The position numbers were made by a program, and so were the translations under genes. Positions 37,049-59,947 of a stretch of 64,000 nucleotides of DNA are shown here, in pieces. Numbering within the stretch: position 1 is the stretch's first letter; every line of letters starts with the position of its first letter. The DNA is from Polaribacter sp. Q13. Lineage in GTDB: Bacteria > Bacteroidota > Bacteroidia > Flavobacteriales > Flavobacteriaceae. The stretch lies in NCBI RefSeq assembly GCF_016858305.2, contig NZ_CP074436.1:578001-642000 (forward strand). The letters are read 5' to 3'. The notes under the pieces are model-generated. The model saw only the letters and a program-made list of their open reading frames with translations. It made no database searches and was not told where the DNA came from.

Positions 37049-37978
37049 AAAATAGTATTGTAATTTGTTTGTATATCTTTAATTTCAATCTCTTCTAATA
37101 CTGAAAACTCTTTTTTCAGTGCACGTTTTGATAGAATACCTTCATTCTGTTCTAAAAATCGAACAAGTATTGCAACTGTTTTATCAGGCATTTCAAAATG
37201 ATTATCTAAGTATTTTTTAAATTCATCATACTTTTGCCGATAACTAACATCTTCAGGTATAATTCTTACTAAAGTGTCTTCTACACAATCGTATAAAAAT
37301 TCTGCTAGTTTTGTAGCGTCAAAATAACGATAAAAATCAATGGTATTATTTGTAACTTTAATGTTATGATTTTCCGTTTCTTTCCATGTTATTTAATCTA
37401 ATAATGGATGTGAATAAGATTCTAAAACATCTTTGTAATCATTAATATGTTCTAGAATTGAAGCAGAAACAGGGAAAATAACTCCTTGCTGTGTAAATTT
37501 CTTTTTCGCTAAAATGTGATGTATTATATAGCGGTGTAAACGACCATTACCGTCTATAAAAGGGTGTATGAATACAAAACCAAATGATATGGTTGCGGCG
37601 GCTAAAACGGCATCATAACTATCGTCTTGTAATAGTGTGTTTGTTTCTATTACTCCATTTAATAACTTAGGAATATCTTGTTCTTTTGCAGAAATATGAT
37701 CCGGAATAGGTTCTCCTGAACTTCTATCATGTGCTCCCACAAAACGACCTTCTTTCCTTAGACCCATTTCTATAAATCTACTGTTTTCTATAACTATTTG
37801 CTGTAAGCGTTCAAGTTCGGTAATACTTAATGATTTACCACCTGCTTGACCAATTGCTTTACCCCATCGCATAGCTCTATTATTACCAGGATTTTCACCC
37901 TCTATGGTAAAAGATGCTTTAGAGTCTTTTAATAATAATAATAATAATAAAGCGCGTATGCTATTTAGAATTGTATTA
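37049..37978 (-). pseudogene. Truncated and mutated fic gene copy
   Basis: The DNA matches the intact fic gene at 58412-59947 nearly base for base over about 930 bases. About the first 190 residues are missing. The Fic motif HPFIDGNGR is still readable. Damage seen: a stop (TAA, read from 37395-37393) where the intact gene has Tyr in DYITWKE, an 18-base in-frame loss (HKDILQ), and a TTA triplet expanded to seven copies (37930-37950) where the intact gene has FLLLK. The original stop codon region is also changed. Both copies lie on the minus strand, so they form direct repeats around the whole 38-58 kb locus. Confidence 0.9.
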
Positions 37979-38145
37979 TTTTTATTTTGTAATAAGAGAA
38001 CCCTTTGTGATTTGGATGATTTGGATGATTTTGAGGTTGTTAGTTTTTCTTCAGAATGTTGAATTAATTAAATAATTATTAGTCTCTCTTGCGTTTATTT
38101 ATGATTAAATAATACATCTAATTTGAATTTTAAACTCAATTATTT

Positions 38146-39003
38146 TTATTGAATTTGCTTATGATAATTAGATTTAAACTCTTTCGGAGATATTTTATGT
38201 TTTCTTTTAAAAACTCTATTAAAATTAGAAAGTGAGTTAAATCCAGCTAAATAACAGATTTCATTAATAGACATATTAGTTTCTGTTAGTAATTTAGTAA
38301 CAACACCTAACCTATATTCTTGAAGGTATTGTGTAAAACTCTGACCAGTTCTTTTTTTAAAATAATGACTAAAAGCAGACTCAGACATACTAACTATTTC
38401 TGCTATTTTGGTTAACTTAATTTCTTCTTGATAATGATTTTGTATATGGTCCATTACTAAAGAGATTCTTCTACTTTCTCTTTTTTGATTGTAATTAGCA
38501 CTTGGTGGACTACTTAATAATTTAATGTCTTTAGAAATTGATAATGTGTGTAGCATTTCTAAAAAAGTTAGAAAGGATTTAAAGGTGTTATTGTTTTCTA
38601 AAGAAAATAACAAATTACTAATTTGATCTTTTGTTGGGTTAGAGAACGAAAGACCTAACTTAGATAATTCTAAAAGCTTCTTTATATCTTTAGATACAGA
38701 ATAACTCATTATTTTTGAATGCAAGAAATGTTCTTGAAATTGAATGGTTATTACACTTGCATTACTAATAGTTTTACAAGATTTCCAAAAATGTTTTAGT
38801 TCAGGTCCTAATAAAACTAAATCAACTCCTTCTATTTCTTCAACGGAATCACCAACTGTTCTTTTTCCTTTAAAATTGGTAATTAAATTGATTTCATATT
38901 CATTATGAAAATGAAGAGGATAATCAAATAATGCATTCTCATGTCTTAAAATAACAAAAGGATCATCAGTTTTTATAGGTGTTATTTCTTTAATTGATTT
39001 CAT
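38146..39003 (-). CDS. AraC family transcriptional regulator
   Basis: A 285-residue regulator with an N-terminal cupin-type sensor domain (FVILRHENALFDYPLHFHNEYEINLI, about 17-42) and two C-terminal helix-turn-helix motifs (IKLTKIAEIVSMSESAFSHYFKKRTGQSF, then MSINEICYLAGFNSLSNFNRVFKRKHKISPKEF, about 190-275). It is divergent from susC with a 216-base gap, the usual place for the local regulator of a utilisation locus. It would sense a mannan-derived oligosaccharide or mannose and activate susC onward; the ligand is inference. Confidence 0.9.
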   Translation of the reverse strand: MKSIKEITPIKTDDPFVILRHENALFDYPLHFHNEYEINLITNFKGKRTVGDSVEEIEGVDLVLLGPELKHFWKSCKTISNASVITIQFQEHFLHSKIMSYSVSKDIKKLLELSKLGLSFSNPTKDQISNLLFSLENNNTFKSFLTFLEMLHTLSISKDIKLLSSPPSANYNQKRESRRISLVMDHIQNHYQEEIKLTKIAEIVSMSESAFSHYFKKRTGQSFTQYLQEYRLGVVTKLLTETNMSINEICYLAGFNSLSNFNRVFKRKHKISPKEFKSNYHKQIQ

Positions 39004-39179
39004 TTATAAAAATATTTTTTTTATAATAAATATCTACAAATTTAAGAATAATAAATTATTCGGCAGTTATTTAATTTATTGATAATAAAAATAGTCTTAT
39101 TTAATGAATAATTGATTTATAATTCAAAAAACGCATAGTATTAAACATAATTTGGTCATTTTAAATCATAAATCTTGTA

Positions 39180-39187
39180 TAATTTTG
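39180..39187 (+). promoter_or_regulatory. Putative -7 element of the susC promoter
   Basis: TAATTTTG fits the Bacteroidota TAnnTTTG -7 consensus, 32 bases before the susC ATG. A TTTG at 39151 is a possible -33 element but the spacing (25 bases) is longer than usual. Confidence 0.35.
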
Positions 39188-39219
39188 AACCATAATTAAA
39201 TTTATAAAAATTAAACTCA

Positions 39220-42200
39220 ATGAATAAAAAAAATCGAATATGGCTTTTCTCTGCTATTTTGACGGTTTTATGTTTTACAAACATAAGCGCTCAAATTAGT
39301 ATTGATGGTGTTATTACAGATGGAAGTGGTATGACATTACCTGGTGCATCTGTAGTTGAAATTGGAACAAGTAATGGGACTACTACAGATTTTGATGGTA
39401 AATTTAAAATTACTGTTAAAAATGAAGAATCTCATATAGAGATAACTTATATAGGTTATGATAATGTTGTAACTAAAATAGGAGTTAAAAGAACATTTAA
39501 CATTATTTTAAAAGAAAACATAGCAGCTTTAGATGAAATTGTAGTTGTTGGTTATGGTTCTGTTAAAAAAAGTGATTTAACAGGTTCTGTATCAAGTGTA
39601 AAAATGAAGGCGTTAGAATCAATCCCTGCAAATTCTGTTGATGGGTTGTTACAAGGTAGAGTTGCCGGGTTACAAGTGGTAACAGCTTCTCAAGAACCTG
39701 GAGCTGGTGCTACTATACGTATTAGAGGAGGAAGTTCTTTTAGTGGAAGTAATGATCCACTTGTTGTTGTTGATGGATTTCCTATTGGTGGAGCCGGAGA
39801 TATAAAGCAAATTAACCCAGCTGATATTGCTTCTGTAGAGGTTTTAAAAGATGCTTCTGCATCTGCTATTTATGGTTCTAGAGGAGCTAATGGTGTAATA
39901 ATGATTACTACCAAGAGAGCTAAGTCTGGTAAAGCATCAGTAGAAATTAACCATCAAACTTCAGTAAAGAGTTTTACTTCAAACTTAATTAACTGGAAAG
40001 ATCCTTTGTTAATGGCAGAGTTAAGTAATGAACGTAGTATAAATGACGGTATGGTTCCTAACTATACGGGGAGAACTATTGCCGGTGTATATTATCCATC
40101 ATTATCAGAAATCGCAAGCGGTGCTTGGCCACACAATACAGATTGGGGAGATGTTGTTTTTAGGGATGCTCCGACATCTACAAATACAACTGTTTCAGTT
40201 AGAGGGGCAAATGATACTACGTCGTTTAATATAAGTGGTAATTTTTTGAAGGAACAAGGGGTTTATATTGAAGATGATTATCAAAAACAAATTATTAATT
40301 TAGGTGTATCTCATAAATTTAGTGATTGGCTTAAAATTAATACCTCTAATATTATTTCAAAAAATAAAAGAGATAGTAATAGCGGACTAGCATATTATAG
40401 AAATCCACTTTGGCCAGTATATGATGATAATGGTGATTATTTTAGAACTTCATCTCAAGATTTTGATCATCCGTTAGCTTATACAGAAAATGTTTTAAAT
40501 ACATCTAAAGGATTAGATATCATTTCATCTTATTTATTTGATTTTACATTAAACGAACATTTAAGTGTTAAAACGCAGCTTAACTATAAATTTGGTTCTA
40601 CAATAGGCGATAGGTATTTACCAAGTGCATATACTTTAGAAGGTAATTATTATGATGGTGTGGCTTACATTACTAATTGGGAAAGTGAAGATATTTTATC
40701 AGAAACTTTTGTAACCTATAACAATACTTTTAAAGATTTACATAAATTAAATGTAATGGTAGGTCAGTCATACCAAACAACTGTAAGTCGTTCATCAGAA
40801 CTTAAAGCTAAAGGTTTTATAAATGAAACATTAGGTAATGAAAATATGAGTGCTGGAGATCCAGAAGCCAATGAAATATCTAATGGTAAATCAGAAACGA
40901 AGTTACTTTCTTACTACGGACGTATAAATTATACCTATAATAATAAGTATTTATTTACAGGAACTATGCGTGCAGATGGTTCTTCTAAATTTGGGGAAAA
41001 TAATAAATGGGCATATTTTCCTTCAGGAGCTATAAGCTGGAAAGCTCATAAAGAAAAATTTATAAGTGATTTAGATGTTTTTAATGAACTAAAAGCACGT
41101 TTAAGTTATGGTATTTCTGGTAATCAAGGTATTGCTCCTTATCAAACTTTAAGTAGATACGGTATAGAAAATTATTATGATGATGGTCAGTTTAAAACAA
41201 CTATTGGTCCAGGATATATAAGTGGGCAATATGGTCCAGATTATCGTTATAATTACTGGTCTGGTATCCCTAATAAAGATTTAAAGTGGGAATCTACAGC
41301 GCAGTTAAACTTTGGGTTAGATATGGCTTTCTTAAACAACAGACTTAAGACCACAGTAGATTTTTATAGAAAGAAAACAACAGATTTATTACGTCAAAAA
41401 TTCTTACCGCTATCATCTAGTTATAGTAGAATTTGGGTAAATGATGGCGAAATTCTTAATAAAGGAATAGAAGTTTCTATTAGTGGAGACATTATTAATA
41501 AGGATGACTTTACGATGTCTACCAACTTAATGCTTTCTATTAATCGAAATGAAGTTACAAGTTTGGGAGATGGAGTTTCTATGGGGTTATTAAAAGATCC
41601 TAACACCGGAATGGATTACGAATTTCAAGGTTCTGGTTTTGATACTTTTGGAATGGCAACTTCTAATATTTATGGAGTAGGTAAACCTTTAAATGTATTC
41701 TATGGTTATAAAACCGATGGTATTATTCAAAATTTAGAAGAAGGGCTTACATCTGGGCTTACTGGGAATATGGCACTACCTGGTGAGTTTAAATATGTAG
41801 ACATTAATAATGATGGAGTTATAGATGAGGGGGATAGAACGATTATAGGAGATCCAAATCCAGATTTTAATGCAAGCTTAGGTCTTAATTTTAATTATAA
41901 AGGTTTCGATTTATCTATGTTCTTTAACGGAGTTTTTGGAAACGATATTTTTTATCCAGGAAAACTAGATCAGGCTAATATTATGCCCTTAAGATGGACA
42001 CAAGATAACCCAAACAATAGTTTTCCAAAATTAAGATCAGTTAGAAACTTATTGTTAAGTGATTGGTTTGTAGAGGATGGGTCTTTTGTAAGATTACAAA
42101 ACCTAACAGTTGGTTACACTTTAGATTCTGATAAAATATCATTTCTATCTAAAGCACGACTTTATATAAATGCAACCAATTTGTACACATTTACTTCAAA

Positions 42201-42303
42201 AGACTTTAATGGGTACGATCCAGAAGTGGGTTTAGATGGAGTGTATTGGGGTGGTTATCCACGTACAAAAAGTGTTACCCTTGGTTTAAATTTAACTTTT
42301 TAA
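39220..42303 (+). CDS. SusC-like TonB-dependent outer-membrane transporter
   Basis: A 1027-residue outer-membrane receptor: signal peptide (about 1-25, ending ISAQ), carboxypeptidase-regulatory-like domain (GVITDGSGMTLPGASVVEIGTSNGTTTDFDGKF, about 30-62), TonB box region and plug domain (LDEIVVVGYGSVKKSDLTGSV; LQGRVAGLQVV; GSSFSGSNDPLVVVDGFPI; VEVLKDASASAIYGSRGANGVIMITTK, to about 230), then a 22-strand barrel ending with the aromatic TLGLNLTF. It forms the import channel with the SusD partner downstream and would take up beta-manno-oligosaccharides. First gene of the locus on the plus strand. Confidence 0.95.
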   Translation: MNKKNRIWLFSAILTVLCFTNISAQISIDGVITDGSGMTLPGASVVEIGTSNGTTTDFDGKFKITVKNEESHIEITYIGYDNVVTKIGVKRTFNIILKENIAALDEIVVVGYGSVKKSDLTGSVSSVKMKALESIPANSVDGLLQGRVAGLQVVTASQEPGAGATIRIRGGSSFSGSNDPLVVVDGFPIGGAGDIKQINPADIASVEVLKDASASAIYGSRGANGVIMITTKRAKSGKASVEINHQTSVKSFTSNLINWKDPLLMAELSNERSINDGMVPNYTGRTIAGVYYPSLSEIASGAWPHNTDWGDVVFRDAPTSTNTTVSVRGANDTTSFNISGNFLKEQGVYIEDDYQKQIINLGVSHKFSDWLKINTSNIISKNKRDSNSGLAYYRNPLWPVYDDNGDYFRTSSQDFDHPLAYTENVLNTSKGLDIISSYLFDFTLNEHLSVKTQLNYKFGSTIGDRYLPSAYTLEGNYYDGVAYITNWESEDILSETFVTYNNTFKDLHKLNVMVGQSYQTTVSRSSELKAKGFINETLGNENMSAGDPEANEISNGKSETKLLSYYGRINYTYNNKYLFTGTMRADGSSKFGENNKWAYFPSGAISWKAHKEKFISDLDVFNELKARLSYGISGNQGIAPYQTLSRYGIENYYDDGQFKTTIGPGYISGQYGPDYRYNYWSGIPNKDLKWESTAQLNFGLDMAFLNNRLKTTVDFYRKKTTDLLRQKFLPLSSSYSRIWVNDGEILNKGIEVSISGDIINKDDFTMSTNLMLSINRNEVTSLGDGVSMGLLKDPNTGMDYEFQGSGFDTFGMATSNIYGVGKPLNVFYGYKTDGIIQNLEEGLTSGLTGNMALPGEFKYVDINNDGVIDEGDRTIIGDPNPDFNASLGLNFNYKGFDLSMFFNGVFGNDIFYPGKLDQANIMPLRWTQDNPNNSFPKLRSVRNLLLSDWFVEDGSFVRLQNLTVGYTLDSDKISFLSKARLYINATNLYTFTSKDFNGYDPEVGLDGVYWGGYPRTKSVTLGLNLTF

Positions 42304-42314
42304 TCTAGAAAATC

Positions 42315-43814
42315 ATGAAAAAAAGATTTATATATATAGTAAGTATTATAGTATTGGGTTTTTACTCTTGCGATTTAACGGAAGAACCATATGGTTTTTA
42401 TTCTGATGATAATTTTTATAAAACTGTAGAAGATGCAGATGCTGCACTTCTATATGCTTATAGAGCATTTAATTACCTTGGGTATAATAGAGGTATGATT
42501 GATATTGGTGATTTGTCAACAGAAATTATGTCTGTAAAGGCAGGAGAAGGAAATGGTGTTCAAGAATTAGATCAATGGAAATCTACTAAAAGTAATGGTA
42601 CATTGTCCGATTTCTTTCAATATTGTTACATCGCTATCAATAGAGCTAATGGGGTTATTGAAAACGTCGTAGATCAAGACTTTAATCAAGCCGATAAAGA
42701 ACGAATTTTAGGAGAAGCATATACTATTAGAGCTTGGAGTTACTTTAGCTTGGTACGTGTTTTTGGTAAAGTGCCAATGCAAAAGCAATTGGTAAGTACA
42801 GAGGCTCAAACTACACCTGCGTTGGCTAAAGATTTAGATGAGGTTTACAATTTTATTCTAGAAGATTTAAATACAGCAGAGTCTTTTCTTTCTATGGATA
42901 GAAAAGTTGGGCATTTCGATAAAGTAGCAAGTTGGGCTATTTTAGCTAAAGTATATTTAAATATAGCATCTGGTAAAGATAACAACGCAGCCGGATATCG
43001 TGATATGGTTGTAGATGCAAATGAAATGTATACTCAATCAGCAAAATGGTCGGCAAAAGTATTAAATGAGCAAGCAGAATTTAGTTTAGATACTTCAATT
43101 GGAAATATTTATGATGTAGAAAAAGCAGATGGTCCAGAGCATATTTGGCTTATCAGTATGGATAGAACGGGCGATAATACAGAAGAATTTGGTTCTTTTA
43201 TGTTAATGTGGATGCCTTGGGGACCAGGGGCTTCGTATTATGTGAAAAATGCAAAAGGAGTAATGGAACCAACTCAAAATGGTTGGGAAGTGTATCATAT
43301 AGAAACGGCATTTAGAGATTCTTTTGGAAGTACAGATAAGCGTGAAACAGATTTAATCGGTAATGAAATATTTGATGTAGATGGTAATAGCATTGGAAGT
43401 GTTGCCGACGGAAATATTATTGCGCCTTTTAGTACTAAATATTTAGACCCTAAATTTAATGGAAACCGAACTAGTACCAGACCTTTAATGATTCGTTTTT
43501 CTGATATCGCATTAACATATGCAGAAGCTGTAGGGCCAACTGCAGATGGAGAAATGTGGTTAAATAAAATTCGTTCTCGTGCAGGTATAGATCCTGTTAC
43601 TACAGGAATGAGTATTACTGATTTTAGAAAAACAGTATTACAAGAAAGAAAGTGGGAGTTAGCATTTGAAGGCCATCATTTATTTGATCTAAGAAGAACA
43701 GCAACTGTGCTTTCTAATATCTCAGAAGCTCAAAGCTCTGGTTTAACAGAAGATGAAGCTGCATTTTATCCTATTCCATTAAGAGAATTAGATTTAAATC
43801 CAAATGCAAAGTAA
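42315..43814 (+). CDS. SusD-like glycan-binding lipoprotein
   Basis: A 499-residue surface lipoprotein: lipobox YSC (Cys about 19), TPR-rich SusD/RagB fold with AYTIRAWSYFSLVRVFGKVPM (about 137-157), KASWAILAKVYLNIA (about 207-220) and the C-terminal LQERKWELAFEGHHLFDLRR segment (about 447-466) typical of SusD. It caps the SusC channel and recruits the polysaccharide chain. It starts 12 bases after susC. Confidence 0.94.
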   Translation: MKKRFIYIVSIIVLGFYSCDLTEEPYGFYSDDNFYKTVEDADAALLYAYRAFNYLGYNRGMIDIGDLSTEIMSVKAGEGNGVQELDQWKSTKSNGTLSDFFQYCYIAINRANGVIENVVDQDFNQADKERILGEAYTIRAWSYFSLVRVFGKVPMQKQLVSTEAQTTPALAKDLDEVYNFILEDLNTAESFLSMDRKVGHFDKVASWAILAKVYLNIASGKDNNAAGYRDMVVDANEMYTQSAKWSAKVLNEQAEFSLDTSIGNIYDVEKADGPEHIWLISMDRTGDNTEEFGSFMLMWMPWGPGASYYVKNAKGVMEPTQNGWEVYHIETAFRDSFGSTDKRETDLIGNEIFDVDGNSIGSVADGNIIAPFSTKYLDPKFNGNRTSTRPLMIRFSDIALTYAEAVGPTADGEMWLNKIRSRAGIDPVTTGMSITDFRKTVLQERKWELAFEGHHLFDLRRTATVLSNISEAQSSGLTEDEAAFYPIPLRELDLNPNAK

Positions 43815-43839
43815 TTATTAATACTTAAAAGATATAAAG

Positions 43840-44733
43840 ATGAAAAAAATAATATATAGCATCTTCTTAATAACCTTAGTATCTGTCTTTTCTTCATGTG
43901 AAAAAGATTTGATGGAAGAGGTTAATGAAGGAAACTGGAATAGTGAACGTAATATTATAGATTTTGGTTTAAAACAACAGATTGGTTTAGCACGTATAGA
44001 ACGATCTGGAAACCAGGCGACCATCAATATTACAATTAATGCAAGCAATCTAGATTTAGCAGCAGTAGATATTACAGATATGGTTTTATCTTATGACGCT
44101 CAAGCAAATGTTACTCGTGGAGATAAATTAAACTTTGATAATCCTGAGAATAAATCAACAGTGATGGTAACTTCAAAAAAAGGAGAAACTTTAGAGTGGA
44201 CTATTTTTATAGAACCTTTTATTAATGAATTAGAAGGGAGTTGGGCAATATCTAGTTATTCTATAAAGTGGGATGATGGTAATGGATGGGGAAATGCAGG
44301 AGAATCTGAACTATCAGACTTATTAACAGAGTCTTCTTCAGGTCTTGATGATATTATAACTATTGGTGCAGTGAAAGGAGCAAATGATGAAGGACTGGTA
44401 TATGGAGATTATGAGCGTACTATGGGAGAAGATGGTTTAGCTGCTTCTTATATTTATGCAAGAACAAGTGAAGATTGGGCTGTTAGGTTTAACCAATTGC
44501 CTATAGGATCTGGAGAGTGGATTTTAAACAAAGACAACTCTGTTACTTTTGTTGTAAATAAAAAATCTTACACTACTAAAACATTCGATAAAATTGATGA
44601 AACCATTCTAAAATTATCGTTAGACCCAGGAGTAAAAGAACTAGGCAGAACTAATTGGGATGATTATTATGGAGATAATACTAATAAATTTGTAGCCGCT
44701 ACAGATTTGTGGTACACACTAACAAAACAATAA
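43840..44733 (+). CDS. SusE-position surface lipoprotein of unknown fold
   Basis: A 297-residue lipoprotein with lipobox SSC (Cys about 20), a region resembling an immunoglobulin or bacterial Ig-like fold (TINITINASNLDLAAVDITDMVLSYDA; ETLEWTIFIEPF), then a lipocalin-like C-terminal part with LEGSWAISSYSIKWDDG. The position directly after susD is where surface glycan-binding proteins (SusE/F-like) are encoded. The family was not identified. It may be a mannan-binding protein. Confidence 0.6.
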   Translation: MKKIIYSIFLITLVSVFSSCEKDLMEEVNEGNWNSERNIIDFGLKQQIGLARIERSGNQATINITINASNLDLAAVDITDMVLSYDAQANVTRGDKLNFDNPENKSTVMVTSKKGETLEWTIFIEPFINELEGSWAISSYSIKWDDGNGWGNAGESELSDLLTESSSGLDDIITIGAVKGANDEGLVYGDYERTMGEDGLAASYIYARTSEDWAVRFNQLPIGSGEWILNKDNSVTFVVNKKSYTTKTFDKIDETILKLSLDPGVKELGRTNWDDYYGDNTNKFVAATDLWYTLTKQ

Positions 44734-44758
44734 TAAATAAGAAAAGGAATGTTAGATA

Positions 44759-44789: not shown

Positions 44790-44874
44790 AATTTATGTTC
44801 TTTTTAAATTTTTAATTCAATGATGTGTTAGTTAAAGCCACTATTGTATAACAGTAAATAAAATATAAATAACT

Positions 44875-46523: not shown

Positions 46524-47576
46524 ATGAATATTATTGAAAAAAATAAAACAGGATTATTACGTCTAAAAAAGCACGAAAAAAATCCTATTTTTAGTCCAAA
46601 TCCAGATAATTACTGGGAAAACATAGTAGTTTGTAACCCTGGAGTTTGGTATGAAAACGGAAAATTTTCTATGTTATATAGGGCGGCCGGAGATGATAAA
46701 GAACATTTTATTAGATTCGGATTAGCAGAGAGTACAGATGGTGTTAATTTTACAAGAGTTTCGGATAAACCTGTATTTTCACCAAGTATAGATGGTCCAG
46801 ATATGGGAGGTGTAGAAGATCCTAGGATAGCAAAGTTTGGAGATGAATTTTACGTTACTTATGCGTATAGACCATTTCCTCCAGGACAATATTGGAAATT
46901 TGCACATGATGTAATTTTATTACCAGAATCAGGAGAAGATACACCGTTGGTTTATAAAAATAATGTAGCAAATTCTGGTTTAGCTATCTCAAAAGATTTG
47001 AAAACTTTTAAACGATTAGGTCGTATTACAACAGCTAATTTAGATGATAGAGATGTTATTCTTTTTCCAGAGAAAATCAATGGAAAATTTGCCATGCTGC
47101 ACAGACCAAAAGAATGGATTGGCAAAAAATATGGTACGGAAAAACCAGCAATTTGGATTCGTTTTACAGATGATTTAATGGTTTGGGAAGAAGAAAGTAC
47201 TCTTTTAATTTCTGGTATAAACGGCACTTGGGAAGAAAAAGTAGGCGGTAGTACTCCGCCTTTAAAAACAAAAGAGGGTTGGTTAGTAATTTATCACGGA
47301 GTAGAAAATGGAGGTTTAGGGTATTATAGAGCAGGAGCAGCTTTATTAGATTTAGATGATCCAACAAAAGTAATTGGGCGTTTAAAAAACTGGATTATGG
47401 AACCAGAACATGACTATGAAATAGAAGGATATTACAAAGGATGTGTTTTTCCAACAGGTAATGTAATTATAGAGGATACATTACACGTGTATTATGGTGC
47501 AGCTGATAAATATATTGGTTTAGCAACATGTAGTGTAAATGAATTATTACAAGCATTAAAAGCATCTAATGATTAA
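46524..47576 (+). CDS. GH130 beta-mannoside phosphorylase
   Basis: A 350-residue five-bladed propeller enzyme without signal peptide, so cytoplasmic. HEKNPIFSPNP (about 17-27), VCNPGVWYENGKFSMLYRA, GVEDPRIAKFGDEFYVTYA with the conserved Asp, LDDRDVILFPEKINGKFAMLHRP (with phosphate-binding Arg and His residues) and LLDLDDPTKVIGR are GH130 blocks. Members phosphorolyse beta-1,4-mannobiose, mannosyl-glucose or mannosyl-N-acetylglucosamine to mannose-1-phosphate. This fits intracellular use of imported manno-oligosaccharides. It overlaps the next gene by 8 bases. Confidence 0.9.
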   Translation: MNIIEKNKTGLLRLKKHEKNPIFSPNPDNYWENIVVCNPGVWYENGKFSMLYRAAGDDKEHFIRFGLAESTDGVNFTRVSDKPVFSPSIDGPDMGGVEDPRIAKFGDEFYVTYAYRPFPPGQYWKFAHDVILLPESGEDTPLVYKNNVANSGLAISKDLKTFKRLGRITTANLDDRDVILFPEKINGKFAMLHRPKEWIGKKYGTEKPAIWIRFTDDLMVWEEESTLLISGINGTWEEKVGGSTPPLKTKEGWLVIYHGVENGGLGYYRAGAALLDLDDPTKVIGRLKNWIMEPEHDYEIEGYYKGCVFPTGNVIIEDTLHVYYGAADKYIGLATCSVNELLQALKASND

Positions 47577-50972: not shown

Positions 50973-53567
50973 ATGATGTTTTATAAAAGTTATAGGTATT
51001 TAATACTGATAATAGCAACGTGTTTTTTTACATCTTGTGATAATTCTCCTAATTTTATTTCAAAAGAAATAAAAACTAACTGGCAATTTAAAGCAGTAAA
51101 AGACACACTTTGGTTAAAAGCGAGTATACCAAGTTCTATTCACACAAACTTAATTGCGAATAAAATTATAGAAGATCCATTTTATCGATTAAATGAGCAT
51201 GATCTACAATGGATTGACAAAAAAGATTGGGAATATAAAACTGTTTTTACTGTTGATGAAACTCTTTTTGATAAAGAAAAAATAGCATTCAATTTTAAAG
51301 GATTAGATACTTATGCAAATATTTATTTAAACGATTCACTTATTTTAAAGACCGATAATATGTTTGTTGGTTATAAAGTGAATGCCAAAAAATATTTAAA
51401 AATTGGCAAAAATAGTTTGAATATTATTTTTGATTCACCAATAAAAATAGGTTTACTAAAAAGAGAAGCATTAGGCTATCAATTGCCGAATGCTGTAAAT
51501 GACCAATCAGAAAATGGAGGATTAGGTAAAAAACAAGTAGCGGTTTTTAGTAGAAAAGCAGGCTATCATTTTGGTTGGGATTGGGGACCAAGATTGGTTA
51601 CTTCTGGTATTTGGCAAGAGATTCAATTAAATGCATGGAACACCGCAACTATAAATGATGTGTATGTGCTACAACAAAATTTATCTAAAGAAAGTGCACA
51701 GTTAAATACTAAAATAGAAATTGAGACTACAAGAGCTATAACTACTCAAATTTATATTAAGATCGATGAAAAGCAATATTTAGAAAAGGAAATTGAACTT
51801 AAAAAAGGAGTCAATAAAATTGAAATTCCTATAAAAATTAATAACCCAGAATTTTGGTGGACGAATGGTTTAGGGAATCAAAAACTTTATAAAATAGATG
51901 TTCAACTAAAAGAAGGAACTAAATTATTAGCTTCTAATTCTCATAAAATAGGATTAAAAACATTAAAAGTAATTCAACAAAAAGACAGTGTTGGAGAAAG
52001 TTTTTACTTTAAATTAAATGGACATGCCGTTTTTATGAAAGGTGCTAATTATATTCCTCAAGATGTTTTTTTAGACAGAGTTACCACAAAGGATTACGAA
52101 AAAGTTATAAAAAATATGGTTGATGCCAATTATAATATGATTCGTGTTTGGGGTGGAGGTATTTATGAGAATGATATTTTTTATGACTTATGTGATAAAA
52201 ACGGAATCTTAGTTTGGCAAGACTTTATGTTTGCTTGTGCAATGTATCCTGGAGATACATCTTTTTTAGAAAACGTAAAAAAAGAAGCAAAATACAATGT
52301 TAAAAGGTTAAGAAGTCATACAAGTATTGCACTGTGGTGTGGTAATAATGAAAATTTTGTGGCATGGAAAAATTGGGGTTGGATAGATCAAATAAAGAAT
52401 AGTCAAGGACAAGAAACTGTAGATGTTATTTGGAAAGGATATCAAGATGTATTTCACAAAATCTTACCAGAAGTAGTTGCTGAATTAGATAGTGATACTT
52501 TTTATTGGGCTTCTTCACCAACATCTGCAAAAGGAGAAGATGCAACGTTAACTTCTGGAGATTATCATTATTGGAGAGTTTGGGGAAATCAGGAATCTAT
52601 TTTAACGTATAACGAAGCAATTCCCCGTTTTATGTCGGAATATGGTTTTCAATCTTTTCCAGATTTTCAATCGGTAGAAAAATATACAGAAGAACAAGAT
52701 TGGAGTATTTATTCTGAGGTAATGCAATCTCATCAACGTTCAAATATAGGTAACAAGAACATAGAAATGTATATGGAATCTTGGTATAAAAAACCGAAAG
52801 ATTTTAAATCATTTTTGTACGTAAGTCAGTTATTACAAAGCAAAGCGATGCAAATTGCTATTGAGGCTCATAGAAGAAATATGCCTTATTGTATGGGGAG
52901 TTTATATTGGCAAATTAACGATTGTTGGCCAGTTGCTTCTTGGTCTACAATAGATTATTATGGGAATTGGAAAGCAGCACATTACCATGTAAAAGACCTG
53001 TATAAACCCATAAAAACAATGTTTTTTAAGAATGATAAAAAACTTGAAGTACATATTGTTTCAGATAAATTAAAAGATAAGAACGCTGTATTAAGAATAA
53101 AATTATTCAATTTTAAAGGTGAAATTTTAGATCAAGTTGAAAAAAACATTACTATAAAATCAAATACAAGTGCTATTTATTTTGATGTAAATAAAACTGG
53201 TTTTACCAACCTAAATAATAATAGTAATAACACTTTTTTAGTTGCAGAATTGGTTGCTGAAAATGATGTTGTTTTTGATGAAACCATCTTCTATTTAGAA
53301 AAACCAAATCAATTAGAATTATCGAAACCTACAATAAAGTATTCGGTTTTAGGGAGTAATAAAAATGGAGTGGAAATAGAAATTTCTACAAACACGTTAG
53401 TAAAAAACATCAACTTAAAAAGTAGTGTAAAAGGTCATTTTTCTAATAATTATTTTGATGTTTTACCGAATAAAAGATACTACATAAAGTTTGATTCTGA
53501 AACAGAAATCAACATAGAACAGTTTACAAAAGAATTAAAAATCACATCACTTTTTGATACTTATTAA
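50973..53567 (+). CDS. GH2 beta-mannosidase lipoprotein
   Basis: An 864-residue exo-beta-mannosidase. A lipobox (TSC, Cys about 22) is followed by the sugar-binding domain (NWQFKAVKDTLWLKASIPSSIHTNL), AGYHFGWDWGPRLVTSGIW (about 192-210), the barrel with MKGANYIPQDVF, MIRVWGGGIYENDIFYDLCDKNGILVWQDFMFACAMYPGD (about 388-427), LWCGNNENFVAW with the acid/base Glu and FMSEYGFQSFP with the nucleophile Glu. The long WGGGIYE...FACAMYP block is characteristic of GH2 beta-mannosidases rather than LacZ. It frees mannose from oligosaccharide ends in the periplasm. Nine bases before manA. Confidence 0.93.
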   Translation: MMFYKSYRYLILIIATCFFTSCDNSPNFISKEIKTNWQFKAVKDTLWLKASIPSSIHTNLIANKIIEDPFYRLNEHDLQWIDKKDWEYKTVFTVDETLFDKEKIAFNFKGLDTYANIYLNDSLILKTDNMFVGYKVNAKKYLKIGKNSLNIIFDSPIKIGLLKREALGYQLPNAVNDQSENGGLGKKQVAVFSRKAGYHFGWDWGPRLVTSGIWQEIQLNAWNTATINDVYVLQQNLSKESAQLNTKIEIETTRAITTQIYIKIDEKQYLEKEIELKKGVNKIEIPIKINNPEFWWTNGLGNQKLYKIDVQLKEGTKLLASNSHKIGLKTLKVIQQKDSVGESFYFKLNGHAVFMKGANYIPQDVFLDRVTTKDYEKVIKNMVDANYNMIRVWGGGIYENDIFYDLCDKNGILVWQDFMFACAMYPGDTSFLENVKKEAKYNVKRLRSHTSIALWCGNNENFVAWKNWGWIDQIKNSQGQETVDVIWKGYQDVFHKILPEVVAELDSDTFYWASSPTSAKGEDATLTSGDYHYWRVWGNQESILTYNEAIPRFMSEYGFQSFPDFQSVEKYTEEQDWSIYSEVMQSHQRSNIGNKNIEMYMESWYKKPKDFKSFLYVSQLLQSKAMQIAIEAHRRNMPYCMGSLYWQINDCWPVASWSTIDYYGNWKAAHYHVKDLYKPIKTMFFKNDKKLEVHIVSDKLKDKNAVLRIKLFNFKGEILDQVEKNITIKSNTSAIYFDVNKTGFTNLNNNSNNTFLVAELVAENDVVFDETIFYLEKPNQLELSKPTIKYSVLGSNKNGVEIEISTNTLVKNINLKSSVKGHFSNNYFDVLPNKRYYIKFDSETEINIEQFTKELKITSLFDTY

Positions 53568-53576
53568 AAGAATAAT

Positions 53577-54545
53577 ATGAAAGCATATCCAATTAAATTT
53601 GAGCCCATTTTAAAAGAAAGAATTTGGGGAGGAGAAAAATTAATAAACATATTTAAAAAGAAATCAGATAAACTAAATATTGGTGAAAGTTGGGAGATTT
53701 CTGATGTAGAAGGAGATGTTTCTGTGGTATCAAATGGACTTTTAAAAGGACAAACATTAAAAGATTTAATAATCAATTTTAAGGAAGAATTTTTAGGGTA
53801 TAAGGTCTATGAAAGGTTTGGTGATAACTTTCCTGTTTTAATAAAATTTATTGATGCAAAAACGCCATTATCAATTCAGGTTCATCCTAATAACGAGTTG
53901 GCTAAAGAGCGTCATAATTCGTTTGGAAAAAACGAAATGTGGTATGTTATGGATGTTGATAAAGATGCCGAATTAATAGTTGGTTTTAATCAAAAGGTAG
54001 ACGAAGAAAAGTATGTTAAGGCTCTGAATAATGGAAAGGTTTTAGATATTTTAAATTCAGAAAAAACAGAAAAAGGAGATACTTTTTACATTCCTACAGG
54101 TAGAGTTCATGCAATTGGCGCAGGTATTGTGTTGGCCGAAATTCAGCAAACATCAGACGTAACCTACAGAATTTATGATTATGAAAGAACTGATGCAGCA
54201 GGAAATCAAAGAGAATTACACACTGAGTTAGCTTTAGATGCTATTGATTATAATTTGTACAATAATTACAAAACAACTTATCAATTAAAAGAAAACCAGT
54301 CGTCAGAATTGGTCCATTCTCCATATTTTAAAACAGATATTATTCAATTAACAAATCAATTAGAAAAAAACTATGAAAAATTAGATTCATTTGTAATTTA
54401 TATGTGTGTAGAAGGTTCTTTTACTCTTGAGTGTAATAATGAATTAATGATGGTAAATAAAGGTGAAACTGTTTTGTTACCGGCTTCAATTAAGGCCGTA
54501 AAATTAAATTCTGAACAAGCAACCCTATTAGAGGTTTATCTATAA
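53577..54545 (+). CDS. manA: Mannose-6-phosphate isomerase, class I
   Basis: A 322-residue cytoplasmic cupin enzyme converting mannose-6-phosphate to fructose-6-phosphate. FEPILKERIWGGEKL (about 7-21), LIKFIDAKTPLSIQVHPNNELAKERH (about 84-109) with zinc-binding Gln/His, GKNEMWYVMD with the zinc Glu, and YIPTGRVHAIGAG (about 165-177) match class I ManA, short bacterial form. It is needed to feed mannose from the beta-mannosidase into glycolysis; the required mannokinase is not in the window. A decayed transporter gene follows. Confidence 0.92.
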   Translation: MKAYPIKFEPILKERIWGGEKLINIFKKKSDKLNIGESWEISDVEGDVSVVSNGLLKGQTLKDLIINFKEEFLGYKVYERFGDNFPVLIKFIDAKTPLSIQVHPNNELAKERHNSFGKNEMWYVMDVDKDAELIVGFNQKVDEEKYVKALNNGKVLDILNSEKTEKGDTFYIPTGRVHAIGAGIVLAEIQQTSDVTYRIYDYERTDAAGNQRELHTELALDAIDYNLYNNYKTTYQLKENQSSELVHSPYFKTDIIQLTNQLEKNYEKLDSFVIYMCVEGSFTLECNNELMMVNKGETVLLPASIKAVKLNSEQATLLEVYL

Positions 54546-54558
54546 AAATATTTTCATA

Positions 54559-54764
54559 ATAAAACCTCTGAATAAGGTATTAACATGGTTTATTACAGCT
54601 GCAATTGCTGGTTTTTTATTTGGTTTTGATACCGTAGTAATTTCTGGAGCAGATAAACATTGTAGCATTATGGGGTTCTTCAACTATTGTTTGTATTTTT
54701 TATGATGCCAGAAACAAAAGGAATGAAATTAGAAGAATTAACTAAAAAATTAATGAATAGATAA
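54559..54764 (+). pseudogene. Remnant of a sugar-porter MFS transporter gene
   Basis: The first piece (54559-54660) reads KPLNKVLTWFITAAIAGFLF then GFDTVVISGADK, the first-helix signature of sugar porters (GxLFGYDxxVISG). The second, in other frames (54662-54764), reads VALWGSSTIVCIF and then MMPETKGMKLEEL to a TAA at 54762. PETKG is the sugar porter C-terminal signature. About 400 residues between are deleted. The stop codon overlaps the ATG of the next gene by one base, so the remnant keeps its original junction with the downstream gene. Confidence 0.85.
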
Positions 54765-56287
54765 TGAATAACAGGGTAAAGTTTTGTGTATTACTTGTTT
54801 TAATAAGTTTTTTTGGTTGTAATACAACACCAGAAAACATCGTTAAAATATATTCAGATCAAATAATTTCTTCCAATTTTATTGGTAATGGAGTACAATG
54901 GTCTGCATATCCTCATGCCGATTCAGAAAATGCAGAATGGGGTAATCTAATGACTGCAGAAAAATGGGACATGAATTTTAAAAGATTAGACTTTATGAAA
55001 CCTAAACTGTTTAGAGTAATGGACCAGGCTAATTGGCGGTATTTAGTTGGCTTTGATAAAGAGGACAATCCTATTTTAAGTTTTGATAATCCAGAAGTTA
55101 AGGCAGTAGAAAAAATACTAGATTATGCACAGCAGAATAATATTTCTGTCCTTTTTGGAGAATGGGGAACTCCATACAAGGTTCATGACAAAAAGGAGGG
55201 GTTTTCGGATAAGTTTACAGGAGCAAATGATCCAAAATGGATTAACTGTATTGTTGAATATTTAGATTATTTAATAATAGAAAAAGGATACACATGTATT
55301 AAATATTACAATTTAATAAATGAACCAAATGGAGATTGGGCATCCACAAAAGGAGATTTTAATGAATGGAAAGAAGGTGTTGTATTACTTTCTAAAGCGA
55401 TAAAAGAAAAAGGATTAGATACATTTATTACTGTTGCCGGACCAGATGCTGTACATCGTTATAATAATCCTAATTCTACTTATTCGGGTATTGGCTGGAT
55501 AGAGCAATCTGCAAAACAATTAACTGAAGAGATAGGTATTTATGAGGTGCATGACTATGCAAAACCATCAATGGTTAAAAGTGGCGAATTTCAGGTTTTT
55601 AATGAGAAAGCAGCTAAAATCCCTAAAGCGTTAAACAAGCAAATTATTTTTGGAGAAATAGGGTTGGGGAAAAGCAATGCTACAAATCAAGAAAGAGCAA
55701 AAAACGATCCGTTTGCAAGTAAAGATAGTCAGATGATGGTGTATGATTATAGTTATGGCATTTATATGGCAGATGCTGCAATACAAATTATGAATGCTGG
55801 TTATTCTGGTGCAGCAGCTTGGGCTTTGGATGATGCAATGCATACTTTAGATGATATTGGGAATAAAAATGAATTGAAAAGATGGGGAATGTGGAATAGT
55901 TTAGGAACCGAAATTTGTAACAATCCAGAAGACGAAAATATAAGGCCTTGGTTTTATTCTTGGTCTTTATTATGTCGTTATTTTCCTACAGGAAGCTCAA
56001 TAATAAAAACGGATGAAACAAAAATAGCAGGAATCCGTTTAACTGCGGCTACTTATAAAGATGATATTACCGTTGCACTTATAAATAATTCAGACATTCC
56101 TAATAAAATAACATTAGATCTTTCAACTTCGAAAACACTACGCAAGTATGTTTATACAGCTCAAGATAGAAAAACTGATAAAAATAATTTTCCTGTTCCG
56201 GTTGCAACAAATATAATCTGTAAAGATTTTTTAAATATAGAATTACCAGCAAATAGCTTTTTATTACTTACAACCATAAAATATTAA
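54764..56287 (+). CDS. Clan GH-A glycosidase lipoprotein, probable beta-mannanase (paralogue 3 of 3)
   Basis: A 507-residue lipoprotein (lipobox FFGC, Cys19) with Glu187 in NLINEPNG as acid/base and Glu298 in FGEIGLGK as nucleophile. It shares SAYPHADS-x-AEWG and AWALDDAMHT with the 47569 copy. It begins at the last base of the transporter remnant and is followed five bases later by the esterase gene, so glycosidase and esterase are probably coexpressed to open acetylated mannan. Family assignment beyond clan GH-A is not certain. Confidence 0.7.
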   Translation: MNNRVKFCVLLVLISFFGCNTTPENIVKIYSDQIISSNFIGNGVQWSAYPHADSENAEWGNLMTAEKWDMNFKRLDFMKPKLFRVMDQANWRYLVGFDKEDNPILSFDNPEVKAVEKILDYAQQNNISVLFGEWGTPYKVHDKKEGFSDKFTGANDPKWINCIVEYLDYLIIEKGYTCIKYYNLINEPNGDWASTKGDFNEWKEGVVLLSKAIKEKGLDTFITVAGPDAVHRYNNPNSTYSGIGWIEQSAKQLTEEIGIYEVHDYAKPSMVKSGEFQVFNEKAAKIPKALNKQIIFGEIGLGKSNATNQERAKNDPFASKDSQMMVYDYSYGIYMADAAIQIMNAGYSGAAAWALDDAMHTLDDIGNKNELKRWGMWNSLGTEICNNPEDENIRPWFYSWSLLCRYFPTGSSIIKTDETKIAGIRLTAATYKDDITVALINNSDIPNKITLDLSTSKTLRKYVYTAQDRKTDKNNFPVPVATNIICKDFLNIELPANSFLLLTTIKY

Positions 56288-56292
56288 TTAAG

Positions 56293-58185
56293 ATGAAAAC
56301 AAATAGACTCGTAGTATTAACACTTCTTTTTTTAAGTATGAATTTATTTTCACAAGACCCTAATTTTCATATTTATTTGGCCTTTGGTCAATCTAATATG
56401 GAAGGTTCAGCAGAAATTGAAGCTCAAGATAAAATTGGTGATGAACGTTTTAAAGTATTACAATCTTTAGACTGCTCTAATTTAGGATTTACAAAAAATG
56501 AATGGAGAGTGGCAACACCGCCATTAACACAATGTTATACAGGCCTTTCTCCTGCAGATTATTTTGGAAAAACGATGATTAAATATTTACCTAAAAAGGT
56601 AAAGGTTGGTATTATAAATGTAGCTGTTGGAGGTAGTGATATTAGATTGTTTGATAAAGAAAATTATAAAAAGTATACAAAGACCTATCCTGAAGATTGG
56701 TTTCAAAAGAAGATTGAAGATTATGGAGGAAATCCATATGAGCATTTTATTAAATTAGCTAAAAAAGCTCAGAAAGATGGTGTTATAAAAGGGATTATTT
56801 TACATCAAGGAGAATCAAATCAAGATGATAAAAATTGGCCAGAATATGTAAAAAAAGTGTATTATAATATGTTAGCAGACCTGTCTTTAGATGCAAATAA
56901 AGTTCCTTTAATAGCGTCGGAACTGGTAGATAAAGAACAAAATGGAGTTTGTGCAAGTATGAATCCAATTATAAATACATTACCAAACGTTATCTCTACA
57001 GCGCATGTAGTTTCATCAAAAGGATGTAAACCAAGAAAAGATCATACTCATTTTAATTCTGCAGGAGTTAGAGAGCTAGGAAAACGATATGCTTTAAAAA
57101 TGCTTTCTATAAAAGGATATAAGGTTAAGGATTACAATCCGAATAAAGATTTAAAATCAGTTGAAATATTACCAAATAATAAAGTAGTATTTAGAATTTA
57201 CGCTCCAAATGCAACTACGGTTAAATTATATTCTGATGATAAATGGGATTATGTAGCCTTTAAAAAAGATAATAATGGAGTTTGGGAAGGATTTTGGAAT
57301 GATGCAAAACCAGGAGTTTATAGTTATAAGTTTATTGTTGATGGAGTAGAAGTACAGGACAGTAAAGCGGTGTCTATAACTGATAATATTCCTGTTATAA
57401 AAATAGCTTCGGATAAAGATTTCTTTTACAAAAGAAATACGATTTCTCATGGAGCAATTACAATTCAAAATTATTATTCAAAAACACTTCAAAAAAACAG
57501 AAGATTAAGAGTTTGGTCTCCTCCAGGTTATGAAAAATCAAAAAAGAAGTTGCCTGTTTTATATTTAATTCATGGCGGTGGTGGTTCAGAAACCTCTTGG
57601 TCTAATATTGGTGCTGTTGGCGATATTTTAGACAATCTTTTTTCTGAAGGTAAAATTAAACCAATGTTGGTTGTTATGCCAAATGGAACTATAGAAACAG
57701 CAGAAATTTTAGATAGAGTTCCGCTTTTTGCAAAAGATTTAATGAATGATATTATTCCTTTTATAGAGAAAACATATAAAGTAAAAACCAAACAGAATGA
57801 TAGAGCTATTATGGGCCTTTCTATGGGCGGTTTAGAAACACTTGAAGCTGTTACCTTTCATCCTAATAAATTTGGTTATGTAGGTGTTTTAAGTTCTGGT
57901 TGGTGGTTAAGTGATTCTTGGAAAGAAAAAAGAGGAATTGTAGATAATTCAGAAAATAGATTAAAGCAATTAAATTTAATAGCTCCTAATTTTAATAAAT
58001 CTGTTAAGATGTTACATTTTACACAAGGAGGTTCAGAAGATATTGCTTTTGAGAATGGAAATGAAACCTTAAAACTATTTAAAAAGGCTAAAATTAATTT
58101 TACATATAGTGAAATGTCAGGCGGACATACTTGGATGGTTTGGCGTAAAAATTTAAGAGATTTAGCTCCAAAGTTATTTAAATAG
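56293..58185 (+). CDS. Two-domain carbohydrate acetylesterase: SASA-type plus CE1-type
   Basis: A 630-residue exported protein (signal peptide 1-20). Domain 1 (about 22-275) is a SASA/SGNH-type esterase: FGQSNMEG with Ser34, HQGESN (171-176) and the KDHTHFNSAG catalytic Asp/His segment, similar to CE6 and sialate O-acetylesterases. Residues about 285-375 form an E-set/CBM48-like domain (VVFRIYAPNATTVKLYSDD, GVYSYKFIVDG). Domain 3 (about 385-630) is a CE1-type alpha/beta hydrolase: YLIHGGGGSETSW, GLSMGG with Ser510 and SGGHTW with the catalytic His. It probably removes acetyl groups from mannan so the GH-A and GH2 enzymes can act. Last gene of the locus. Confidence 0.85.
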   Translation: MKTNRLVVLTLLFLSMNLFSQDPNFHIYLAFGQSNMEGSAEIEAQDKIGDERFKVLQSLDCSNLGFTKNEWRVATPPLTQCYTGLSPADYFGKTMIKYLPKKVKVGIINVAVGGSDIRLFDKENYKKYTKTYPEDWFQKKIEDYGGNPYEHFIKLAKKAQKDGVIKGIILHQGESNQDDKNWPEYVKKVYYNMLADLSLDANKVPLIASELVDKEQNGVCASMNPIINTLPNVISTAHVVSSKGCKPRKDHTHFNSAGVRELGKRYALKMLSIKGYKVKDYNPNKDLKSVEILPNNKVVFRIYAPNATTVKLYSDDKWDYVAFKKDNNGVWEGFWNDAKPGVYSYKFIVDGVEVQDSKAVSITDNIPVIKIASDKDFFYKRNTISHGAITIQNYYSKTLQKNRRLRVWSPPGYEKSKKKLPVLYLIHGGGGSETSWSNIGAVGDILDNLFSEGKIKPMLVVMPNGTIETAEILDRVPLFAKDLMNDIIPFIEKTYKVKTKQNDRAIMGLSMGGLETLEAVTFHPNKFGYVGVLSSGWWLSDSWKEKRGIVDNSENRLKQLNLIAPNFNKSVKMLHFTQGGSEDIAFENGNETLKLFKKAKINFTYSEMSGGHTWMVWRKNLRDLAPKLFK

Positions 58186-58197
58186 TATTTTAAAAAC

Positions 58198-58257
58198 TCC
58201 TTTAGCTTTCTTTGTTCGACTTTCTCATTCTAAAGTCGAACAAAGGAAGCTAAAGGA
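58198..58257. repeat. Long 26-bp hairpin at the end of the mannan locus
   Basis: TCCTTTAGCTTTCTTTGTTC onward to 58223 pairs with 58232-58257, with one G-T pair and an 8-base loop. A T run follows on the minus-strand side, so it could end fic transcription on the minus strand and esterase transcription on the plus strand. Confidence 0.7.
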
Positions 58258-58348
58258 AAACAAATCTATTTACCTAATACAATATGTAATAATCTCTTTA
58301 TTTAAAGGGTTTAAGGTGTGTGGGGCGGAGTAGTGGTGTAGTATTTTG

Positions 58349-58393
58349 TCTTCTTTTGATTGATTTAGTCAAGTAAAAGAAGATGACTTTTTT
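58349..58393 (+). terminator. Second hairpin terminator after the esterase
   Basis: TCTTCTTTT and AAAAGAAGA form a 9-bp stem around a 17-base loop, with a run of T after a short spacer. It is a backup stop for plus-strand transcripts running toward fic. Confidence 0.5.
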
Positions 58394-58411
58394 ATCTAGA
58401 GTTGTTCCGTT

Positions 58412-59947
58412 TTATAAAAAAATAGTATTGTAATTTGTTTGTATATCTTTAATTTCAATCTCTTCTAATACTGAAAACTCTTTTTTCAGTGCACGTTTTG
58501 ATAGAATACCTTTATTCTGTTCTAAAAATCGAACAAGTATTGCAACTGTTTTATCAGGCATTTCAAAATGATTATCTAGGTATTTTTTAAATTCATCATA
58601 CTTTTGAAGATAACTAACTTCTTCTGGTATAATTCTTACTAAGGTGTCTTCTACACAATCGTATAAAAATTCTGCTTGTTTTGTAGCGTCAAAATAACGA
58701 TAAAAATCAATGGTATTATTTGTAACTTTAATGTTATGATTTTCCGTTTCTTTCCATGTTATGTAATCTAATAATGTATGTGAATATGATTCTAAAACGA
58801 TTTTGTAATCATTAATATGTTCTAAAATTGAAGCAGAAACAGGAAAAATAACTCCTTGCTGCGTAAATTTCTTTTTAGCTAAAATATGATGCATTATATA
58901 GCGATGTAAACGACCATTGCCATCTATAAAAGGGTGTATGAATACAAAACCAAATGATATGGTTGCAGCTGCTAAAACGGCATCGTAACTATCGTCTTGT
59001 AATAGGATATTTGTATCCATTACTCCTTTTAATAACTTGGGAATATCTTGTTCTTTTGCAGAAATATGATTCGGAATAGGTTCTCCTGAACTTCTATCAT
59101 GTTCTCCCACAAAACCACCTTCTTTCCTTAGACCCATTTCTATAAATCTACTGTTTTCTATAACTATTTGTTGTAAGCGTTCAAGTTCGGTAATACTTAA
59201 TGATTTACCACCTGCTTGACCAATTGCTTTACCCCATCGCATAGCTCTATTATTACCAGGATTTTCACCCTCTATGGTAAAAGATGCTTTAGAGTCTTTT
59301 AATAATAAAAAAGAAGAAGCGCGTTGCAATATGTCTTTATGTATGCTATTTAGAATTGTGTTTTTTCGGCTAGATAAATTAGCATTAATATAGTTTTCTA
59401 ACTTTTGAGTTTTAAAAATTAATGGACAAAAATCTACAGTTCCTGGTAGGTTGTTAATAATTTTATGCCTTGCAGATTCTTCTCCTTTTATTGTGTATTG
59501 GATATTAGAGTCAAGTAGTTGAATGTATTTACGTTTTTTTAAATCTATTGCTACATCAATTTTTTTTTGTTGAAGCCATTCGTATATAAACCAAATCTTT
59601 CGACTATATTGACCAGATGGTTCTATATGTAGAATTTCTTTTATTTGATCTTTTGTAATTACTTTAAATAACGCTTTAAATAATAGTAAATTAATACCTT
59701 CATATTTAATAGCAAATACCAGTTGTTTGTACAATGTCTCTTCTGGTTGATATGAGGTCGGAAATACTTTCCAATAGGTATTATTATACTTTTTACTTTT
59801 TTGGGTTATTAGCGATAGTGTATTTGGAAAGGGTATTGGTAATTTTAAACTTTCTATTATAGCACCATAACCCACTATTTTTCCTCTTTCAGGTGTGTTT
59901 CTTCCTTGAAAAAATGAAGTTTCATTTAATGGTATTATTATTTCCAT
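58412..59947 (-). CDS. Fic family protein with N-terminal inhibitory motif
   Basis: A 511-residue cytoplasmic Fic-domain protein. The Fic core carries HPFIDGNGRLHR (338-349), the complete catalytic H-P-F-x-x-G-N-G-R motif for adenylylation. SFTIEG (222-227) matches the [S/T]-x-x-x-E-[G/N] inhibitory motif upstream of the core, so this is a self-inhibited class II-type enzyme. The N-terminal ~190 residues look like a Fic-associated domain and the C-terminal ~100 like a winged helix (LSKRALKKEFSV). The target protein is unknown. A truncated copy lies at 37049-37978. Direct repeats rich in GCGC lie upstream of its start. Toxin-antitoxin, stress or phage-defence roles are all possible. Confidence 0.92.
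   Translation of the reverse strand: MEIIIPLNETSFFQGRNTPERGKIVGYGAIIESLKLPIPFPNTLSLITQKSKKYNNTYWKVFPTSYQPEETLYKQLVFAIKYEGINLLLFKALFKVITKDQIKEILHIEPSGQYSRKIWFIYEWLQQKKIDVAIDLKKRKYIQLLDSNIQYTIKGEESARHKIINNLPGTVDFCPLIFKTQKLENYINANLSSRKNTILNSIHKDILQRASSFLLLKDSKASFTIEGENPGNNRAMRWGKAIGQAGGKSLSITELERLQQIVIENSRFIEMGLRKEGGFVGEHDRSSGEPIPNHISAKEQDIPKLLKGVMDTNILLQDDSYDAVLAAATISFGFVFIHPFIDGNGRLHRYIMHHILAKKKFTQQGVIFPVSASILEHINDYKIVLESYSHTLLDYITWKETENHNIKVTNNTIDFYRYFDATKQAEFLYDCVEDTLVRIIPEEVSYLQKYDEFKKYLDNHFEMPDKTVAILVRFLEQNKGILSKRALKKEFSVLEEIEIKDIQTNYNTIFL

Follow-up and report, generated by a model that had tools for sequence, protein, structure and literature searches.

In integrons, an integrase is accompanied by small units that have like boundaries and are arrayed in one direction. 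Islands of the Salmonella genomic island 1 (SGI1) family target the 3' end of trmE, also named mnmE or thdF, in Gammaproteobacteria, and passages of PMC8409611 also report related SGI1-type islands with tandem neighbours. Parts of PMC5704250 describe cis-mobilizable elements (CIMEs), which are decayed elements that keep their attachment (att) sites without integration genes and are stacked in tandem, and accretion, in which later arrivals enter at the site containing the end of the gene. The subject of the present analysis is a predicted mannan utilisation locus of Polaribacter sp. Q13 that lies between two copies of a fic gene close to mnmE. It is contained in a window of 64,000 nucleotides (G000:C1:578001-642000; positions given without a genome label refer to this whole stretch), where G000 is the 4.42 Mb, single-contig genome of the strain. 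The labels G004, G018, G034, G037, G110 and the like denote genomes of the same genus, of which there are 166 including G000, and G166 is a genome from another genus of the same family.

The mannan locus probably sits in a hotspot for site-specific integration at the mnmE 3' end that would have been built by serial accretion followed by deletions. This model draws on known kinds of events, because the passages of PMC5704250 describe accretion and those of PMC8409611 describe trmE as a target. The array resembles the SGI1 family, as portrayed in these passages, in the target gene, in the gene end that is used, and in the tyrosine integrase, which here occurs in relatives only. A core sequence that duplicates the mnmE end marks a unit boundary, in keeping with SGI1-type integration at that end. 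In contrast to the family as described there, the array belongs to a different phylum, has no integrase of its own in G000, and carries the mannan locus as cargo together with a candidate defence gene. It is not classed here as a member of the SGI1 family; the likeness is drawn from the target site and the integrase. Neither integrative elements at mnmE in Bacteroidetes nor mnmE integrases in Flavobacteria were found in open-licence literature, which is weak evidence of novelty.

The fic unit and its boundary sequences

The target gene of the hotspot is mnmE (60334..61776, minus strand; PF12631, PF10396, PF01926), and sequence comparison and a profile place an att-like core at its 3' end (60330..60351, plus strand). 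An internal att-like site (58262..58385, plus strand; nhmmer E 7e-37, itself a row of the profile alignment) is positioned between the mannan locus and the right fic copy. Its core, at about 58262-58290, duplicates the mnmE 3' end, and is followed by a conserved arm of about 120 bp, which continues to about 58385. The arm terminates in a short inverted repeat (58340-58385), read by eye from the sequence, that could form a hairpin.

The right fic copy is an intact gene (58412..59947, minus strand; PF02661). Its product matches the PADLOC candidate model PDC-S24 with 622 bits, residues 23-510 aligning to positions 5-489 of the 497 in the model, and is thus a candidate phage-defence protein. A publication naming PDC-S24 was not found in open-licence literature. 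The window sequence 58273-60349 aligns to G110 863879-861803 with 97.06% identity, and the alignment starts and stops inside cores, located at 58273 and 60349. The neighbours of the aligned segment differ on both sides: the mannan locus and mnmE in G000, CIA30 and a two-gene unit in G110. The segment therefore forms a unit of 2.08 kb from core to core, with fic as the sole listed open reading frame of at least 100 amino acids and without an integrase of its own. Like a CIME, it has an att site at each end and no integration genes; it differs from the CIMEs described in parts of PMC5704250 in being just 2.08 kb long, in holding one gene, and in showing no sign of decay from a larger element.

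Differences between G000 and G110 at fourfold-degenerate sites amount to 10/161 (6.2%) in fic, 54/160 (33.8%) in mnmE, and 40/127 in a photolyase-like gene at 35005-36486. Because the fourfold divergence of fic is 6.2% and that of mnmE 33.8%, the comparison of substitutions indicates that the fic unit moved horizontally between species. The corresponding values relative to G018 are 31/150 in fic and 78/142 in mnmE, and relative to G004 57/136 and 68/149, without a clear gap. The array could also have been built in a relative and have reached this genome as linear DNA, for instance through transformation, with a pair of homologous crossovers in the flanking sequence. The greater closeness of fic than of mnmE and the photolyase-like gene to G110 is what any import would give, and a donor locus is not displayed by any genus genome searched (best two candidates per genome). 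However, the match to G110 terminates at the cores rather than at random flank positions, and the origin of the array is shifted to the donor, which leaves room for site-specific build-up there. Import of linear DNA is therefore quite improbable as an alternative to integration at the cores.

Plasmids and phages were rejected as carriers of fic: matches occur in 286 of 72,556 plasmid records, the best with 56% identity, and in none of 50,697 phage records. The exact 18-base internal core has 0 matches in IMG/VR viral contigs.

A core-plus-arm profile (nhmmer), built from ten sites and run on the regions read, yields 13 hits: four in G110, three in G037, two in the window, and one each in G004, G043, G068, and G070. 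Hits outside the profile alignment are those in G043 (E 1.2e-29), G037 at 407722 (5.2e-11), and G070 (1.5e-5). The second copy in the window is diverged and lies left of the CIA30 block (31262..31437, plus strand; 83 bits, E 4.6e-24, also a row of the alignment). Over 204 loci (1.52 Mb, many from this region) the profile has no hit elsewhere at E <= 0.01. In G000, the best non-self match to core plus arm is the mnmE end, a weak match with E 0.04.

Integrases and variable content at mnmE in relatives

In G110, a tyrosine integrase (PF00589, PF13102) sits 172 bp past mnmE. Matches to it at E <= 1e-20 are present in 53 of the 166 genus genomes, many of them distant. Of the 32 listed matches with at least 37% identity, 25 are on the strand of mnmE at 163-1083 bp beyond its stop, and among these listed matches all 12 with at least 68% identity are at 163-173 bp. 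For the partial matches of G008, G067, G038, and G087, the distance is the gap to the matched part. One further listed match is the second integrase of G043, which has an internal core at a distance of about 600 bp; the same subtype is found 580-602 bp from mnmE in seven other genomes. The two related integrases of G043 are separated by about 15 kb, and a core-plus-arm copy lies between them (L185:2864-3004, C22:141863-142003), an arrangement indicative of two tandem islands at mnmE, each with an integrase.

The mnmE-end array resembles an integron in having an integrase next to small units of like boundaries that run in one direction. However, the integrase scores far below the cut-off of the integron-type model TIGR02249 (54.7 versus 265 bits), the units range from 2 to 24 kb or more, and the boundary repeats the end of a housekeeping gene.

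The left neighbour of the hotspot is a CIA30-family gene (36497..36985, plus strand; PF08547, 122.6 bits), which adjoins fic in G110. The interval between CIA30 and mnmE is variable in relatives: it spans 5 kb in G034 and 54 kb in G037, both without fic, and about 59 kb in G110, where fic adjoins CIA30 without the mannan locus. At E <= 1e-60, fic is present in 8 of the 166 genus genomes, and it is within 60 kb of mnmE in six of these eight, G000 being included in both counts. It is next to mnmE in G004, where the contig stops 3 kb past fic, and 20-36 kb from mnmE in G018, G070, and G068. The CIA30 protein was not matched in G004, G018, and G040 in a search that had no positive control. The two-gene unit beside the fic unit of G110 (L042:369-1347, C1:860368-861346) matches PDC-M21A with 171.6 bits and PDC-M21B with 93.4 bits, which are candidate defence labels. 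The G110 array also includes a type I restriction subunit, and one G037 unit holds SusC, SusD, and a hybrid two-component regulator. The fic gene of G040 (L027:12318-15191), which is far from mnmE, adjoins a type I restriction subunit.

The fic repeats and the mannan locus between them

An earlier note on this DNA described near-identical fic repeats on the same strand flanking the locus, and self-BLAST bears this out: 58417-59311 aligns with 37047-37941 over 895 bp at 95.754% identity, with 38 mismatches and no gap (E 0.0, same strand), and the match runs on with gaps beyond 37941 to about 37981. At the sensitivity used, these are the only two places in the genome with this fic sequence. The left copy (37047..37981, minus strand; self-BLAST, alignment) is truncated and decayed, as had also been stated. 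It retains the 3' part of the gene, approximately the last 320 codons, has lost approximately the first 190, and contains a single in-frame TAA as well as an expanded run of AAT. The copy is abutted by a remnant of about 30 bp from one end of an insertion sequence dispersed in the genome (37016..37046; 88-92% matches of query positions 15-52 to eight further genome places), full copies of which encode a Transposase_mut (Mutator-family) transposase. The spacing from CIA30 to fic is about 285 bp, with core and arm, in G110 and 61 bp, with the insertion sequence end, in G000. The simplest reading would be a deletion adjacent to the insertion sequence. Neither this end nor the mnmE-end copy with its arm between the locus and the right fic had featured in the earlier note.

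The left copy differs from the G110 fic in 21 of 892 columns and from the right copy in 37 of 892. In 940 columns, including the gapped tail, there are 29 changes private to the left copy, 24 to the right copy, and 7 to G110. Two same-orientation copies in one genome might have arisen by local duplication of fic in this lineage, with the mannan locus placed between them by another route. This is disfavoured by the distances, since the left copy has fewer differences from G110 than from the right copy, and weakly by the site patterns: 2 sites unite left and right copies versus 5 and 9 for the other pairings with G018 as outgroup, and 4 versus 3 and 7 with G004, which are small numbers. Local duplication is thus very improbable. 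The closeness of the left copy to G110 would allow a resident-plus-import history of either kind.

The earlier note had proposed a circle that carried the mannan locus with part of fic and was taken up through a single homologous crossover at the chromosomal fic. The 895-bp direct repeats of 95.75% identity, the CIA30-adjacent fic without the locus in G110, and the lack of the integrase in this genome are compatible with such an event. Differences between the right copy and G110 are concentrated in 58513-59071 (27/559, versus 25/1461 outside). However, the clustering is not clear evidence: this stretch was picked after looking, and differences of the control pair G110-G018 cluster as well (permutation 0.019 vs 0.002); a mosaic right copy is therefore not claimed as proof of recombination. 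The crossover also predicts the resident fic flank, core plus arm, beside CIA30, yet it is found at the right copy, which only a later deletion could rescue, and the core between the mannan locus and the right fic stays unexplained. The right fic is instead part of a mobile core-to-core unit, and homology at fic is not needed, because relatives carry a tyrosine integrase at the mnmE end. A single crossover at fic is thus not supported in the form proposed, and appears unlikely. Two arrangements that the earlier note regarded as contrary to its model, two fic copies without the locus and the locus at this site without fic duplication, were not seen. Deletion of the mannan locus by recombination between the fic copies, also suggested there, is possible.

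The mannan locus begins 165 bp past the end of the left fic copy and stops 226 bp before the right fic stop. It starts with an AraC-type regulator (38146..39003, minus strand; PF12833, 83.8 bits), and all the genes that follow are on the plus strand. These encode a SusC-type TonB-dependent transporter (39220..42303; TIGR04056, 824 bits), a SusD-type lipoprotein (42315..43814; PF07980, PF14322), and a 297-amino-acid protein without a Pfam or NCBIfam match (43840..44733), which has a homologue with 38% identity in the G166 locus. Next are a glycoside hydrolase family 5 (GH5)-like protein (44875..46407; PF00150, 38.2 bits), a GH130 mannoside phosphorylase-like protein (46524..47576; PF04041, 188.6 bits), a second, weakly matching GH5-like glycoside hydrolase (47569..49137; PF00150, 27.8 bits, cut-off 23.5), and a sodium:solute symporter (SSS) (49169..50764; PF00474, 263.5 bits). 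The last genes encode a GH2 beta-mannosidase-like protein (50973..53567; PF22666, PF17753, PF17786), a mannose-6-phosphate isomerase, or phosphomannose isomerase (53577..54545; TIGR00218, 152 bits, cut-off 116), a third GH5-like glycoside hydrolase (54764..56287; PF00150, 36.4 bits), and a protein with SASA and esterase parts (56293..58185; PF03629, PF00756). An inverted repeat follows the last gene (58198..58257; 86.7% over 60 bp in a self-match to its own complement). The SusC/SusD pair, the mannan-type enzymes (GH5, GH130, GH2), and the regulator make this a coherent mannan utilisation locus with a regulator of its own, as the earlier note had recognised; the substrate is predicted from the genes.

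The SusC-SusD DNA was searched for in the 165 other genus genomes at E <= 1e-50, with the best two candidates per genome scored. The mannan locus looks acquired, because only short stretches were matched in two of these genomes (G060, 537 bp at 72%; G158, 584 bp at 69%). SusD has matches at E <= 1e-60 in 7 of 397 family genomes drawn, including G000, and the best other match is in G166 (67%). The G166 locus is syntenic, with identities of 45% for AraC, 70% for SusC, 67% for SusD, 62% for GH5, 76% for GH130, 54% for the symporter, and 64% for the esterase part, and has no fic nearby within the 40 kb read. It contains one GH5-like gene, whereas there are three here; the content is otherwise ordinary for a mannan locus of the Flavobacteriaceae type.

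Probable assembly of the array at mnmE

From these comparisons we infer catalysis at the cores, an order of events, and the entry of the mannan island by way of an integrase. The tyrosine integrases of relatives would recombine the mnmE-end core with an identical core on incoming circles. The insert would restore the mnmE end and leave core plus arm at its far side, and therefore further inserts could stack in tandem. The intact fic would be one small unit of this kind of accretion, without its own integrase. In the most likely order, a fic unit would have come to lie beside CIA30, as in G110, the mannan island would then have entered at the mnmE-side core, and a second fic unit would have entered nearest to mnmE. 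Later deletions, one of them beside the insertion sequence end, would have eliminated the core and arm on the left together with the 5' third of the older fic copy and the att site at the left end of the mannan island. The intact state of the mnmE-proximal fic copy and the decay of the far copy fit this order.

Several observations weigh against integration at the cores. The mannan locus has a core on its right only and none was found at 37000-38150, so that, unlike a CIME, it does not have an att site at each end. G000 has no match to the mnmE-adjacent integrase family; PF00589 has no match within the window, and its five matches in G000 are all outside it. The integrase route is stated conditionally for the mannan island because of this missing integrase and the missing left att site. 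Ten of the 13 core-plus-arm hits are the profile's own rows, the right arm copy was first spotted by eye, and degenerate cores occur at G110 859947-860094 and at window 31262. Three of the 32 listed integrase matches have other locations (G071, and on different contigs G079 and G022), and three are unplaced, as G118 and G142 had no mnmE match and the listed mnmE positions do not include G101. Fic is also far removed from mnmE in its two most distant carriers, G040 and G069. The empty site that the earlier note had proposed to look for was found in part: G110 has fic beside CIA30 without the locus, but no truly empty CIA30-mnmE site was seen in the genus genomes compared. An excised circle was not observed either.

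Left of the CIA30 block, G034, G110, and G037 have a backbone in common, and the window's left half (1-31700) shows no collinearity with it. Nothing of this backbone has a match in G000 500000-609710, and the view that the part of the window before about 31.7 kb is shared chromosome was rejected; the left side is therefore rearranged or holds a second insert. In G037, a 33.7-kb insert is located at a place left of the CIA30 block, with core plus arm near its right end. A second insertion site left of the CIA30 block is likely. The left part of the window also contains adjacent paralogous genes (9799-11256 and 11601-13076; 74% DNA identity) and a 155-bp direct repeat (26033-26187 and 29412-29566; 82% identity).

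With integration at the mnmE end, an odd gene duplication becomes a mapped integration hotspot in a marine bacterial genus, where candidate phage-defence units and an island for sugar use have a site in common. It may tentatively be proposed that the mnmE end in this genus is an integron-like capture platform outside integrons, where an mnmE-specific integrase of an island would move units of about 1.8-2.1 kb, each with a single candidate defence system, in trans beside large polysaccharide islands. Movement of the small units in trans, if real, would amount to a cassette system based on an ordinary island integrase, and as a capture platform the site would allow phage defence and diet to be exchanged at a single address.

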